Shown here: piece after piece, positions 13,770 to 25,568 of the stretch
Numbering within the stretch: the stretch's first letter is position 1
Layout: each line of letters opens with the position of its first letter
Origin: a virus
Strand: one strand, 5' to 3'
Length of the DNA stretch: 25,819 nucleotides
Virus record (IMG/VR): IMGVR_UViG_3300042317_000022
Location: 1-25,819 of that record
Notes under the pieces: model-generated
Databases searched by the model: none
Told to the model about the DNA's origin: nothing
The model's input: only the letters and a program-made list of their open reading frames with translations
Made by a program: the position numbers and the translations under genes

Positions 13770-14467
13770 ACTACGCCGCGTTGTCTGCTGCGATTCAGGA
13801 TTACACCCAGAACTACGAAGATGAGTTCGTGGCAAATATTCCCGTCTTCGTCAAACAGGCGGAGCAGCGCATCTACAACACGGTTCAGTTTCCGTCCCTA
13901 AGAAAGAACGTCACGGGCTCCACGTACATCAGCAACAAGTACCTGTCATGCCCCAATGATTTTCTGTCGGTTTACTCGATGGCGGTGATTGACGCCACGG
14001 GGTCGTATGAGTACCTGCTCAACAAGGATGTGAACTTTATCCGGCAGGCGTACCCAAACCCCAATGACACGGCCATCCCCAAGTATTACGCGCTGTTTGG
14101 CCCGACCACGACTTCTGGGGAAAACCCACAGATTACCAATGAGCTGTCGTTTATTCTGGGGCCAACTCCTGATGCCATCTACAGCGTTGAGCTTCACTAC
14201 TATTACTACCCTGAGTCGATCACAACGGCTTCCAGCGGGCAAACATGGTTGGGTGACAACTTTGACTCGGTGTTGCTCTATGGCTCTCTGGTTGAGGCGT
14301 ACACGTTTTCAAAAGGCGAAGCCGATTTGATGGCTTTGTATGACGGTAAATACAAAGAAGCTTTGGCGCTCGCTTCCAGACTTGGTGATGGCCTTGAGAG
14401 GTCTGATTCATATCGTAGTGGCCAGTACCGACAGGCACCGTTACCACAGAACAGCGGGGTCAAGTGA
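13766..14467 (+). CDS. Head-tail adaptor protein (SU10 adaptor-like)
   Basis: A 233-aa protein like the adaptors of SU10-type podoviruses, which form a ring beneath the portal. Landmarks: FVKQAEQRIYNTVQFPSLRK (28-47) in the N-terminal helical part, YLSCPNDFLSVYSMAVID (59-76), YEYLLNKDVNFIRQAYPNP (81-99), then PKYYALFGP (105-113) and a beta stretch ending HYYYYPESI. The C-terminal helix (about 170-215) would contact the portal. With the 311-aa adaptor upstream it gives two neck-type proteins, as expected for a layered connector. It shares its stop with the start of the following HNH gene (TGATG). Confidence 0.85.
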   Translation: MNYAALSAAIQDYTQNYEDEFVANIPVFVKQAEQRIYNTVQFPSLRKNVTGSTYISNKYLSCPNDFLSVYSMAVIDATGSYEYLLNKDVNFIRQAYPNPNDTAIPKYYALFGPTTTSGENPQITNELSFILGPTPDAIYSVELHYYYYPESITTASSGQTWLGDNFDSVLLYGSLVEAYTFSKGEADLMALYDGKYKEALALASRLGDGLERSDSYRSGQYRQAPLPQNSGVK

Positions 14468-15030
14468 TGGAAGCAACCCGCAAAGCAGCGATTGCAAAGG
14501 GAGACTCCCAGTACTTCACTGGGAAGGCGTGCCAGCATGGGCATGTTGCTCCTCGTCGCGCTACTAGTGGGGAGTGCCTTGTGTGTCGTGCAGAGCGGTT
14601 GAAGGTATGGCGAATAGAAAACCCCATCAAAGTGCAGCAGCATAACAAGACGCAGTACAACCGTTTTGCGGAAAAGATCAAGGTCGCTACCAGAAAATAT
14701 CACGCGAAAAATGTTGATGTCGTGAACGCAAAGAAGCGGGCGTATCAAAAAACACACCTGCATATTTACGCCAAAATAAAAGCCAAGCGACACGCTGCTG
14801 AGTTAAAGCGCACCCCCGCGTGGCTCACAGAAGACGACCATTGGTTAATGGAACAAGCCTATGAGTTGGCCGCGCTAAGAACTAAGTTGCTTGGCATTTC
14901 TTTTCAGGTAGATCATGTGCTGCCTCTACAGGGTAAACTTGTGTCGGGGCTACACGTACCTCTAAATCTGCAAGTGATTCCTGCCAAAATGAACCGCGCC
15001 AAATCCAACAGTTTTGAGGTAACAGCGTGA
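14467..15030 (+). CDS. Free-standing HNH endonuclease with N-terminal Cys/His module
   Basis: A 187-aa protein. Near the N terminus CQHGH (22-26) and CLVC (37-40) could bind a structural metal. A long basic helical middle follows (about 45-115). The C-terminal part is an HNH (beta-beta-alpha-metal) nuclease: VDHVLPLQGK (148-157), GLHVPLNLQVIPAKMN (161-176) and a final Asn (181). Asp149-His150, Asn167 and Asn176 fit the motif. Such genes are usually mobile elements in phages that cut and copy themselves into related genomes. It is lower in GC than its neighbours (44% by hand count for 14641-14760). Start ATG 14467 is preferred to GTG 14464. Confidence 0.85.
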   Translation: MEATRKAAIAKGDSQYFTGKACQHGHVAPRRATSGECLVCRAERLKVWRIENPIKVQQHNKTQYNRFAEKIKVATRKYHAKNVDVVNAKKRAYQKTHLHIYAKIKAKRHAAELKRTPAWLTEDDHWLMEQAYELAALRTKLLGISFQVDHVLPLQGKLVSGLHVPLNLQVIPAKMNRAKSNSFEVTA

Positions 15031-22246: not shown

Positions 22247-24469
22247 ATGCCAACATCATACACATCCCTTCTCGGTCTAGCTCTTCCGGTTACGGGAGAA
22301 CTGTCCGGCACTTGGGGCGCTACGGTAAATGACTCCATCACTTCTTTGCTGGACACCGCCGTGGCGGGCACAACCAGCATTACGACCGATGCGGACATCA
22401 CGCTAACAACCACCACGGGCGCGTCCAATCAAGCACGGCAAGCGATTATTTTGTGGAACCCGGCGTCGGGTACTACGACTCGCAACATTACAGCCCCCGC
22501 ACAGTCCAAGATTTACACGGTGATCAACGCTTCTGGTGGTACGCAGTCCATCGTTTTCCGTGGCGTAGGCCCGACAACTGGCGTGACCATCGTTAAAGGC
22601 GAGGCCGCTGTTGTTACATGGAACGGCTCTGACTTCATCAAAGTCAGCAACACCAGCGGCGCAGGAACATTTACCGACCTGACTGTTACGGGCAACACGA
22701 CCTTGGGCGATGTAGTTGGCGACACCCTGACGGTCAATGCGACCTCCACCTTCAACAACGCCAATTTAACGCTTAATGCTGGCACCGCCAACGGCGTGGC
22801 CTACCTCAACGGCAGCAAAGTCCTGACCACTGGGTCTGCGCTGGTGTTTGATGGCAGCAACCTGGGCCTGGGGGTGACGCCGAGTGCTACAAGCGTAACT
22901 GGTTATAGAGCTTTGGAAATTGGCGCGGTTGGATCGGGTTTTCTGGGAGGCGCTAACGACCTGAACGCAGCAGTAAACGCCTATTACAACACAGGTCTTG
23001 GCGGTTGGATTCGCGCAAATACGTCGGCCCCTGCGCGGTATCAACTTGCATCTGGTGCCCATGTGTTTTACACGGCGGCTGCTGGAACAACGGGGACATC
23101 CTTTTCTTTCACCCAGGCAATGACGCTGGATGCGAGTGGGAATTTGGGTATTGGCATTACATCACCCGGACAAAAACTTCATGTTGAAAACAGTGTTAAT
23201 AGCTCAACTTGGACAAAGATTAGTAACGGGAATAGTGGTACTGGTGCAGCGGCAGGAGTTTTGTTTGGCACAGATCAAGGTGATGCTGGCGCATTATCTC
23301 AAAACAGCTCAAATGCGGGTTATGGTACGGCTGCAAATGCTGTGCGTTTGCGTAACTTGCTAAATGCCCCAATTACTTTTGAAACCAATAACACCGAACG
23401 CGCCCGTATCGACTCCTCCGGCAACCTCGGCCTGGGGGTGACGCCGAGTGCTTGGGGGTCAGGTCAAAAGGCCATCCAAGTTGGTTCCTCTGGGGCTATT
23501 AATGGAAGCTCAAATACATCACTGGTAGTTGTTTCCGCCAACCGCGTTTATAACGGTACTAACGATCTTTACATCAACACAGCAGCGGCGACAGCTTACC
23601 AACAATCAAGCGGAGCCCACGCTTGGTTCACCGCCGCTTCCGGCACCGCAGGCAACGCGATCACGTTTACGCAGGCGATGACGCTGGATGCGAGTGGGAA
23701 TTTGCAAATTGGCAACACGTCATATGCGTATCGCGTTGCGGCTTCGCGTGCATCAGACGGTATTGTTGGCTATTTCCGTCGAGATGGGGCAACGGTTAAT
23801 CCGGCGCTAACGATTTCCTGCAATGAGACAGGCAACACTGTTGGGTTTGGCACTGACTATGCTGGAGCAACAAGCCCGGCAATTACATTTAGTACGCAAG
23901 GCACCGAACGCGCCCGCATCACGAGCGGGGGTGATTTGCTGGTGGGGACGACGGATGCTGGAGCAACAACTGGTGTCGGCGTAAAGACTCTTTACAGCGC
24001 AACTATCCCCGCAATCTTCACCGTGTTTAATACGGCTGGCGGTGGTAATGCCTATAACTTTTACAACACAAACGCAACAAACAATGGCTATCGGTTTTAT
24101 GTAAAAGTCGACGGCGGTATTGCAAACTATCAGGCAAACGATCTTAATTTGTCTGACCAAAGACTCAAAAAAGATATTTCCGACGCAGGTAGTTATTTGG
24201 AAAAAATTTGCTCAATTCCTGTTCGCACATTCCGTTACAAAGACCAATCTGATTCTCTGCTGACTCTTGGGGTAATTGCTCAAGAGGTGGAGAAAGTTGC
24301 GCCTGAGTTGGTTAACAACGATGGGTTTGGCGACACTCCAGATGATGGTGTGCCATTGAAAACCATCTACCAGACCGACCTGCAATATGCGCTGATGAAG
24401 TGCATCCAAGAACTCAAAGCCGATCTCGACGCAACCAAGGCCGAATTGGCCGCACTCAAAGGAGCCTAA
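22247..24469 (+). CDS. Tail fibre/spike with C-terminal S74 intramolecular chaperone
   Basis: A 740-aa protein. The N terminus (about 5-40, SLLGLALPVTGELSGTWG) resembles the virion-anchoring start of other environmental phage fibres. The middle is beta-rich with two copies of a ~95-residue unit (from about 206 and 394), each running from LGLGVTPSA to MTLDASGN. The C-terminal 106 residues form a peptidase S74 domain: LSDQRLKKDI (635-644), FRYKD, LGVIAQEVEKVAPELV, and a terminal coiled coil. In this family the domain trimerises the fibre and then cuts itself off through a Ser-Lys pair. Ser636 and Lys641 match the SDxRxK spacing. TAAGGA (22235-22240) precedes ATG 22247. A receptor-binding role is inferred. 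Confidence 0.92.
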   Translation: MPTSYTSLLGLALPVTGELSGTWGATVNDSITSLLDTAVAGTTSITTDADITLTTTTGASNQARQAIILWNPASGTTTRNITAPAQSKIYTVINASGGTQSIVFRGVGPTTGVTIVKGEAAVVTWNGSDFIKVSNTSGAGTFTDLTVTGNTTLGDVVGDTLTVNATSTFNNANLTLNAGTANGVAYLNGSKVLTTGSALVFDGSNLGLGVTPSATSVTGYRALEIGAVGSGFLGGANDLNAAVNAYYNTGLGGWIRANTSAPARYQLASGAHVFYTAAAGTTGTSFSFTQAMTLDASGNLGIGITSPGQKLHVENSVNSSTWTKISNGNSGTGAAAGVLFGTDQGDAGALSQNSSNAGYGTAANAVRLRNLLNAPITFETNNTERARIDSSGNLGLGVTPSAWGSGQKAIQVGSSGAINGSSNTSLVVVSANRVYNGTNDLYINTAAATAYQQSSGAHAWFTAASGTAGNAITFTQAMTLDASGNLQIGNTSYAYRVAASRASDGIVGYFRRDGATVNPALTISCNETGNTVGFGTDYAGATSPAITFSTQGTERARITSGGDLLVGTTDAGATTGVGVKTLYSATIPAIFTVFNTAGGGNAYNFYNTNATNNGYRFYVKVDGGIANYQANDLNLSDQRLKKDISDAGSYLEKICSIPVRTFRYKDQSDSLLTLGVIAQEVEKVAPELVNNDGFGDTPDDGVPLKTIYQTDLQYALMKCIQELKADLDATKAELAALKGA
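22866..23452 (+). repeat. Duplicated fibre unit, exact 23-bp and 27-bp repeat pairs
   Basis: A 23-bp sequence (GCCTGGGGGTGACGCCGAGT plus GCT) is identical at 22866-22888 and 23430-23452. A second pair of 27 bp, encoding MTLDASGNL, is identical at 23120-23146 and 23678-23704. The segments between have diverged. Conserved edges around variable centres suit recombination that exchanges fibre modules. Confidence 0.85.
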
Positions 24470-24472
24470 ACC

Positions 24473-24796
24473 ATGACTACTATCACTTGGGTAATTTCTG
24501 CCCTCGACTGCATTCCTCAAACCCCAGAGGGCGCAGACTACGTTGTGACGGTTCACTGGGCCTGCAACGGCACGGACGGAGCCTATAACGCAAGCGTGTA
24601 CTCCACATGTTCTCTGCCTGTTGTTGACAGCGGAAATTTCATCCCGTATTCGTCGCTCACAGAGCAAACTGTGCTTGGGTGGATCTGGGCCAACGGCGTG
24701 GATCAAGCAGTCACAGAAGCCGCTGTGCAGCAGCAGATCGACAACCAGCGGAATCCTCCAGTTATTACGCCGCCGCTTCCATGGATCAGCCAGTAA
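24473..24796 (+). CDS. Small conserved phage protein (DUF7936-like) with a replaced 3' end
   Basis: A 107-aa protein: TITWVISALDCIPQ (3-16), VVTVHWACNGTDGAYNASVY (24-43), FIPYSSLTEQTVLGWIWANG (55-74), a helix with VQQQIDNQ (86-93), and the end PPVITPPLPW (95-104). I recall this family, which commonly ends in PPVVTPPLPW, from the fibre region of many phages, under a DUF name that I believe is DUF7936. Function unknown. AAAGGAG (24458-24464) lies upstream of ATG 24473. The oddity is at its end: the same ten-residue ending occurs again about 600 bp downstream, after an HNH gene. This suggests the present ending was supplied by that insertion. Confidence 0.75.
   Translation: MTTITWVISALDCIPQTPEGADYVVTVHWACNGTDGAYNASVYSTCSLPVVDSGNFIPYSSLTEQTVLGWIWANGVDQAVTEAAVQQQIDNQRNPPVITPPLPWISQ
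24755..24784 (+). repeat. Upstream copy of a duplicated gene end (PPVITPPLPW)
   Basis: Ten codons in the frame of the 107-aa gene. Compared with 25366-25395, nine of ten residues are identical, but only 21 of 30 bases match. Eight of ten codons differ, mostly at the third position. The HNH start codon (24781) lies inside this copy. Confidence 0.85.
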
Positions 24797-25407
24797 GTGA
24801 ACTTCAATTTAGTCGTTACACGCGGCTGATTGAATACGCCAAGCAACACCGGCCAGAGGGTCGGGTGGAGAGGCATCATATTATTCCGCGCTCTATGGGC
24901 GGCTCAAACGACAAGAACAATTTTGTTGAGCTTAGTCTAAGATTGCATTTTGTGGCGCATTGGCTTTTGTGGAAATCTTACCGAAACTCAAAAATGGCAA
25001 ACGCTTTTTGGACGATGGCTTGCTGCAATGGGCGGCGGTTAAATTCAAAAACATATGACATTGTTCGTTCAGTTGCCGCAAAATCTATAGCGGAGTCCAA
25101 GCGCGGGAAAACAACATCAGCAAAGCAAAAAGCCGTTGTTAGCGCTTTAATGTCCGGAAAAGTCTTTTCTAAAGAAACCTGTCAGCGTATCTCTAAGGCA
25201 AAGACTGGAAAAAAACAGACAGCGGAGCATAAAGCTAAGGTGGCTGCACAAAGAATTGGCAAAAAATTATCTCTGGAAACCAGAGAAAAAATGTCTGCGG
25301 CTAAACGTGGAAAAAAACCAAACAATTGGAAAGGTTGGAAAATGTCAGAAAACGCAATAAATTTCCCCCCGGTGGTTACGCCTCCCTTGCCCTGGAGCCA
25401 AGCATGA
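24781..25407 (+). CDS. HNH homing-type endonuclease with NUMOD3 repeats
   Basis: A 208-aa basic protein. The N-terminal nuclease shows RVERHHIIPRSMGGSNDKNN (28-47), with His32-His33, Asn46/47 and then His56 and His60, an HNH arrangement. Residues about 108-185 hold repeated Gly-Lys/Ser-x-Glu segments (GKVFSKETCQRISKAKTGKK, GKKLSLETREKMSAAKRGKK), the NUMOD3 DNA-binding pattern of homing endonucleases. The last residues (196-205, PPVVTPPLPW) do not belong to that family but match the end of the upstream gene. The start is ATG 24781, overlapping the upstream gene by 16 nt. Hand counts give 40-41% GC (24901-25020 and 25201-25320) against 55% in the upstream gene, a sign of transfer. Confidence 0.88.
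   Translation: MDQPVSELQFSRYTRLIEYAKQHRPEGRVERHHIIPRSMGGSNDKNNFVELSLRLHFVAHWLLWKSYRNSKMANAFWTMACCNGRRLNSKTYDIVRSVAAKSIAESKRGKTTSAKQKAVVSALMSGKVFSKETCQRISKAKTGKKQTAEHKAKVAAQRIGKKLSLETREKMSAAKRGKKPNNWKGWKMSENAINFPPVVTPPLPWSQA
25366..25395 (+). repeat. Downstream copy of the duplicated gene end (PPVVTPPLPW)
   Basis: Ten codons now read in frame as the C terminus of the HNH protein, followed by Ser-Gln-Ala and TGA. They probably represent the original 3' end of the 107-aa gene, displaced by the inserted nuclease. The TGA overlaps the next gene's ATG, the tight junction style used elsewhere in this operon. Confidence 0.75.
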
Positions 25408-25568
25408 ACGATCAAAAAATTGAACTGACACTGCCACTTGTTAACGCTATCCTGCAATACCTGGGCACCCGCCCTTTTGTGGAAGTTGCCGGTTTGATCA
25501 ACGAAATTCAGAAGCAGGCTGCTGCCCAAGGGGAGGCACCTGTTGAGCAGCCCAAAGCGGAAGACTGA
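25404..25568 (+). CDS. 54-aa small conserved phage protein
   Basis: A 54-aa protein, IELTLPLVNAILQYLGTRPF (6-25) followed by VEVAGLINEIQKQAAAQG and an acidic tail. Amphipathic helices and the LPLVNA.L.YLGTRPF pattern recur in short phage proteins near fibre genes; function unknown. The start chosen is ATG 25404, which overlaps the previous stop as ATGA; an in-frame ATG at 25326 lies inside the HNH gene and is less likely. This junction would have coupled it to the 107-aa gene before the HNH insertion. Confidence 0.65.
   Translation: MNDQKIELTLPLVNAILQYLGTRPFVEVAGLINEIQKQAAAQGEAPVEQPKAED

Follow-up and report, generated by a model that had tools for sequence, protein, structure and literature searches.

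A probable HNH-NUMOD3 homing element at the 3' end of a phage DUF7936 gene, with a replacement gene end and a captured native end

Studies of fungal mitochondria have described mobile ORFs with inserted C-termini in atp6 of Allomyces macrogynus and in atp6, atp9, cox2 and nad3 of Glomus sp. (PMC3630166), and partial C-terminal duplications have been reported beside endonuclease ORFs in the same organelles (PMC6279837). The seg and mob genes of T4-like phages are free-standing; segF overlaps the upstream ORF by 11 bp, mobA by 23 bp and mobC by 24 bp, and double-strand break repair is accompanied by co-conversion of the flanking DNA (PMC2988022). The ShiLan-type hidden HNH insertion sits in a phage methylase gene (PMC11855218), and HomeR is an engineered home-and-rescue gene drive based on Cas9/gRNA in Drosophila (PMC7968924).

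In this study, we analysed a window of 25,819 bases, an IMG/VR viral record, and we believe that a phage DUF7936 gene was very probably invaded near its 3' end by a free-standing HNH-NUMOD3 homing element, which brought a replacement end and captured the native one. As in the fungal mobile ORFs (PMC3630166), the endonuclease ORF is inserted in a protein gene close to its 3' end, the replacement C-terminus is in phase with the host gene, and the native C-terminus now lies further downstream, still joined to its native flank. Codons diverge much more than residues between the two copies, and the native copy matches close relatives without the ORF. Unlike the fungal elements, this one lies in phage DNA instead of a mitochondrial genome and encodes an HNH-NUMOD3 protein instead of a LAGLIDADG or GIY-YIG nuclease. 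In addition, the nuclease gene starts within the replacement end and carries the native remnant as an in-frame tail, which keeps the overlap with the next gene. Because it is an HNH-NUMOD3 gene in a viral record, we regard the phage element as working like the fungal mobile ORFs but do not class it as a member, and there is no evidence of common descent.

The T4 seg and mob genes are likewise intron-free phage nuclease genes, some of which overlap an upstream ORF, and the mob genes are of the HNH family; unlike the element in the window, they are described as lying between genes, and that review, in a term search for duplications, reports no duplicated or replaced host gene ends (PMC2988022). 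The ShiLan-type insertion is also an HNH homing gene within a phage protein gene, with overlapping frames and neither intron nor intein. There, however, the host frame reads through the insertion (PMC11855218), whereas the DUF7936 frame stops at the replacement end (24794-24796) and has no need to be read through. With HomeR (PMC7968924), the element shares, as an analogy of working principle only, a nuclease cassette within a gene whose re-coded 3' end keeps the gene working. No phage report of gene-end replacement was found in searches of an open-access library without subscription papers.

Layout of the locus and the nuclease

The features of this locus are on the plus strand. The host gene (24473-24796) encodes a DUF7936 protein of 107 aa (Pfam PF25590, E=1.7e-26, residues 1-104), with the profile aligned through its final position, and is a hybrid of a native body and a replacement 3' end. 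Directly 5' of it lies a tail-fibre-like gene with a C-terminal Peptidase_S74 chaperone domain (22247-24469; PF13884, E=3.2e-13). The replacement end (24749-24796; RNPPVITPPLPWISQ and stop) contains the start codon of the nuclease gene (24781-25407, 208 aa). This start, ATGG, lies within the DUF7936 Pro-Trp codons CCATGG, which accounts for the 16-base overlap of the two genes. The displaced native end (25366-25407; PPVVTPPLPWSQA and stop) gives the nuclease its last 13 residues, its stop and an ATGA overlap with the following 54-aa gene (25404-25568). That gene was formerly coupled to the DUF7936 stop, and in L013, L015, L059 and L074 a homologue stands immediately after the uninterrupted DUF7936 gene. 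The whole interrupting unit in the 107-aa gene is approximately 650 bp. Elsewhere in the window, a 188-aa ORF at 14464-15030 with a Cys-rich N-terminus overlaps the stop of its upstream ORF (ATGA) and bears an HNH-nuclease-like stretch, DHVLPLQG...NLQVIPAKMNRAKSN; it had no Pfam match at E<=0.01.

The product of the HNH gene matched the phrog_655 homing endonuclease (E=4.2e-42). The NUMOD3 motif (PF07460; residues 160-190, 25258-25350), presumed to be the DNA-binding part, scored 33 bits, above its cut-off of 20.4, and the Pfam HNH and HNH_5 matches fell below theirs. Residues E30, H32, H33, N47 and H56 were invariant in nine sequences, and an AlphaFold model of moderate quality (mean 64.7) placed two strands and a helix in the HNH region. 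The gene shares an HNH catalytic motif, NUMOD3 repeats and a position outside any intron or intein with phage free-standing HNH-NUMOD3 homing endonucleases, and the full and empty pairs and mosaics described below are candidate sequence traces of its cutting, and being copied into, alleles that lack it. A recognisable intron RNA, the mark of a group I intron, is lacking: the Rfam scan found no intron family, and its sole match, to a human lncRNA model below threshold (E=0.57), was attributed to chance. Since the host frame stops at 24796, there is no intein either. Searches of bacterial and archaeal genomes gave only two weak hits, which leaves uncultured phage contigs as essentially the only known source of the element.

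The first-pass annotation regarded the nuclease tail as foreign to HNH-NUMOD3 proteins, and this was borne out. The NUMOD3 motif ends at residue 190 and residues 183-208 had pLDDT below 50, which indicates predicted disorder and a tail outside the recognised fold. Cultured phages gave many HNH-NUMOD3 hits at 30-38% identity, and in the four whose upstream gene could be compared, the tail was not matched. The same annotation put the GC content of the HNH gene at 40-41%, below that of the host gene; it is indeed lower (host 54.6%), with a value of 43.4% over 24797-25358.

The two copies of the gene end

The 107-aa gene terminates in ...NPPVITPPLPWISQ and the overlapping HNH gene in ...NFPPVVTPPLPWSQA. 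Both genes had been described as ending at PPLPW; the motif is present in each, with three more residues after it. The comparison of PPVITPPLPW with PPVVTPPLPW was reproduced exactly: between positions 24755-24784 and 25366-25395, 21/30 bases, 9/10 residues and 2/10 codons agree. Chance or convergence might be offered as the source of the likeness, the motif being short and rich in proline. However, the HNH tail scored 62 against the upstream gene end, while 2000 shuffles had a mean of 21.6 and a maximum of 44; none reached the observed score, here or in most other tailed loci, and the cultured-phage controls gave no match. Duplicated ends also follow the nuclease, being found in 6/9 DUF7936 loci with an HNH gene and 1/91 without one (p=5e-7), although the loci are few and partly related, so that this p-value overstates their independence. 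We therefore consider that shuffles, controls and the HNH-linked distribution leave chance or convergence with practically no probability. The apparent duplication in L199, which has no HNH gene, looks spurious, with a low score, a distance of 1.2 kb and an ORF of 31 codons.

Uninterrupted relatives show which copy is native. In L059 and L074, which lack the HNH gene, the DUF7936 gene continues as TGGAGCCAAGCATGAACGA straight into a homologue of the 54-aa gene, as the first-pass annotation had expected of such relatives. Their DUF7936 genes end ...CCTTGGAGCCAAGCATGAACGAC, overlapping this homologue, and the downstream copy in the window reads ...CCCTGGAGCCAAGCATGAACGAT. Junctions of the same kind are present in L015, L028, L051, L078, L186 and L187. 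This match identifies the downstream copy as the native end. It had also been predicted that native DNA would be nearer to the downstream copy. This held for the closest native alleles, L004-L006, which share 28/30 bases with the downstream copy and 21/30 with the upstream copy, and for L183 in relation to L086, but not across 77 DUF7936 ends, whose mean identity was 21.2/30 to the native copy and 21.4/30 to the upstream copy. The ends are codon-saturated, with freely varying codons, so the broad identity test was uninformative and the replacement end resembles an ordinary diverged allele.

Both copies read as DUF7936 ends, which would also be expected if a second, tandem DUF7936 gene had once stood downstream and the HNH gene had replaced its body, leaving the end behind. 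One tandem pair of a second host gene, described below, was indeed seen (L126). On the other hand, none of the loci L001-L080 has two DUF7936 genes, L013 and L183, the close empty alleles, each contain a single gene with a single end, and in uninterrupted relatives the native end directly adjoins the 54-aa gene. We rejected this origin as very improbable, since the full and empty pairs largely refute it.

Mobility of the unit and alleles without the nuclease

The window was compared with L007, a different phage contig. The host bodies are 81.9% identical, the replacement ends agree at 48/48 bases, the HNH genes are 99.5% and the native remnants 97.3% identical, and the flanks fall to 64% upstream and 40% downstream. 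The unit common to both thus comprises the replacement end, the nuclease gene and the start of the native remnant (24749-25395). The host gene of L007 is 95% like that of L008, which has no HNH gene, and follows it up to AACCAG, where the two split; ATCAACCCTCCTGTGGTTACG then follows in L008 and CGGAATCCTCCAGTTATTACG in L007. This split indicates that the replacement end begins at 24749 and travels with the nuclease gene. The same mosaic pattern was found in six further pairs, and the unit boundaries sit at the insertion point instead of being scattered. The 23-base core of the window's replacement end occurs elsewhere only in three viral contigs, L007, L001 and L002.

Full and empty alleles point in the same direction. 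L009 (HNH 67% identical) and the HNH-less L013 are nearly the same phage, because their flanks are 97.4% identical over 3.0 kb upstream and 98.6% over 4.0 kb downstream. L086 (HNH approximately 55%) and the empty L183 have nearly identical host genes until the replaced end, and a right flank at 93.5%. The class 1b loci L086, L088, L089 and L090 have a common replacement end, NPPVSP(A/T)NT(P/A)LPWTTA, and tails that vary: PPVSPQNTPLPWNQS and PPVSPENTPLPWSAA where in frame, a copy out of frame in L090, and no tail in L088. Each element-bearing locus thus retains its own native end where one remains. In L090 (102-953), one base was apparently lost, the displaced end is frame-shifted relative to the HNH frame and the nuclease C-terminus differs; the in-frame fusion is therefore not strictly kept. 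The duplicated tail is absent in the HNH relatives L083-L085, L087, L088, L106 and L107 and shortened in L114, L124 and L158, so it is not required and can be lost.

The first-pass annotation proposed entry near the 3' end with a substitute end, the original end becoming the nuclease C terminus and stop. The full and empty pairs, the mosaic pairs and the uninterrupted relatives all support this account. These alignments show the replacement end and the nuclease gene moving together into one specific gene at its 3' end; the replacement end completes the host reading frame, and the displaced native end continues the frame of the nuclease.

The mosaics of the window/L007 type would also come from ordinary phage recombination. 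The DUF7936 gene (window 24403-24785) is itself approximately 95-97% identical between phages with unrelated neighbouring sequence, which marks the gene behind the tail fibre as a recombination patch. Such a patch is what one would expect if generalised recombination at DUF7936 spread the unit passively, with a nuclease that is inactive or cuts elsewhere; the architecture would then be the same, without homing. Against this, the nuclease frame and the HNH residues are conserved across relatives down to approximately 50% identity, the boundaries of the unit coincide with the insertion point, and the closest HNH clade (10 loci, >50% identity) is confined to DUF7936 gene ends. We consider purely passive spread unlikely, though it deserves more weight than a tandem origin, and we keep homing as the preferred reading.

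Under homing, the uninterrupted gene end of a co-infecting phage would be cut by the nuclease close to the codons for QINPPVVTPP. Repair would then draw on the element-bearing copy, with the DUF7936 body serving as left arm and the native remnant, together with the DNA downstream of it, as right arm. The host gene would stay intact, the copied tract holding a complete, differently coded end that should escape cutting. Recombination between the two diverged end copies would permit a near-clean exit, leaving a functional gene with a replacement-end scar.

Alleles of this appearance exist. L001 and L002 (L001 2387-2698), which lack the HNH gene, carry the window's replacement end up to CGCCGCCGCT and then the native L004-type GCCCTGGACTGCATAA. 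L010 and L011, also without it, carry the end of L009 through the HNH start (CCATGGATTACCC) and then native CTGCGGCATAA. In both cases the switch from one end copy to the other keeps the register. These alleles are possible footprints of element loss (excision by recombination) or of partial conversion, which look alike; each process would leave an intact DUF7936 gene.

The codons of the replacement ends were also compared with those of native ends. CCATGG, which the nuclease start requires, occurs in 4/4 element-borne end lineages and 2/52 native ends (p=4e-5). The Ile codon of QINPP is changed in 4/4 element-borne lineages and kept in 40/52 natives (p=0.005, at a position picked afterwards), a weak hint that the replacement end may escape cleavage. 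The Ile-codon change speaks against the view that the unit simply carries with it the end of a diverged DUF7936 allele, as has been suggested for the fungal mobile ORFs, with any immunity incidental and no selected recoding that hides the site. In favour of that view, the upstream copy is no farther from other DUF7936 ends than the native copy is, by the means given above. We regard the matter as evenly balanced.

A second host gene and what the element means

More distant HNH relatives, at 33-40% identity, overlap an unrelated gene of approximately 60 aa, phrog_20370-like, at its end, which reads ...KWLAEGNTPLPAD; these HNH proteins carry tails such as AEYLKWLAEGNTPLPADAQPE, matching that end. 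In the pairs L122/L123, L114/L118, L126/L131, L128/L158 and L109/L112, the host body is 55-66% identical, the replacement end and HNH gene 87-100%, and the identity is lower beyond. A duplicated end was found in 6/17 loci with HNH and 0/69 without (p=3e-5, which again overstates the independence of partly related loci). End replacement with tail capture was observed at this gene in L109, L112, L113, L114, L115, L118, L120-L123, L126-L128, L131 and L158; in L126 the gene stands in two tandem copies, with the HNH insertion in one. In these comparisons, the end-replacement design recurs at a second, unrelated small phage gene.

We believe it about equally probable, either way, that these loci represent a widespread phage class of natural home-and-rescue elements. 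In such a class, HNH-NUMOD3 nucleases would target the 3' ends of small genes of at least two unrelated families (DUF7936 and the phrog_20370-like gene), with a cut-proof replacement end that holds the nuclease's own start codon and a native end captured as tail and stop, and loss of the element would leave replacement-end alleles immune to re-invasion.

The finding suggests how a coding sequence can host a homing gene that needs neither intron nor intein: the element brings along the end that would be missing, and so leaves the host gene functional. This design is known from fungal mitochondria; in phages it recurs with a different family of nuclease and in two or more unrelated host genes. 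For annotation, it is a warning that a C-terminal tail on a phage HNH protein may be a piece captured from a neighbouring gene. By analogy, the element resembles an engineered home-and-rescue gene drive in natural form. The natural full and empty pairs, together with the HNH-less alleles carrying element-borne ends, offer a simple system in which drive, rescue, exit and resistance can be tested directly.
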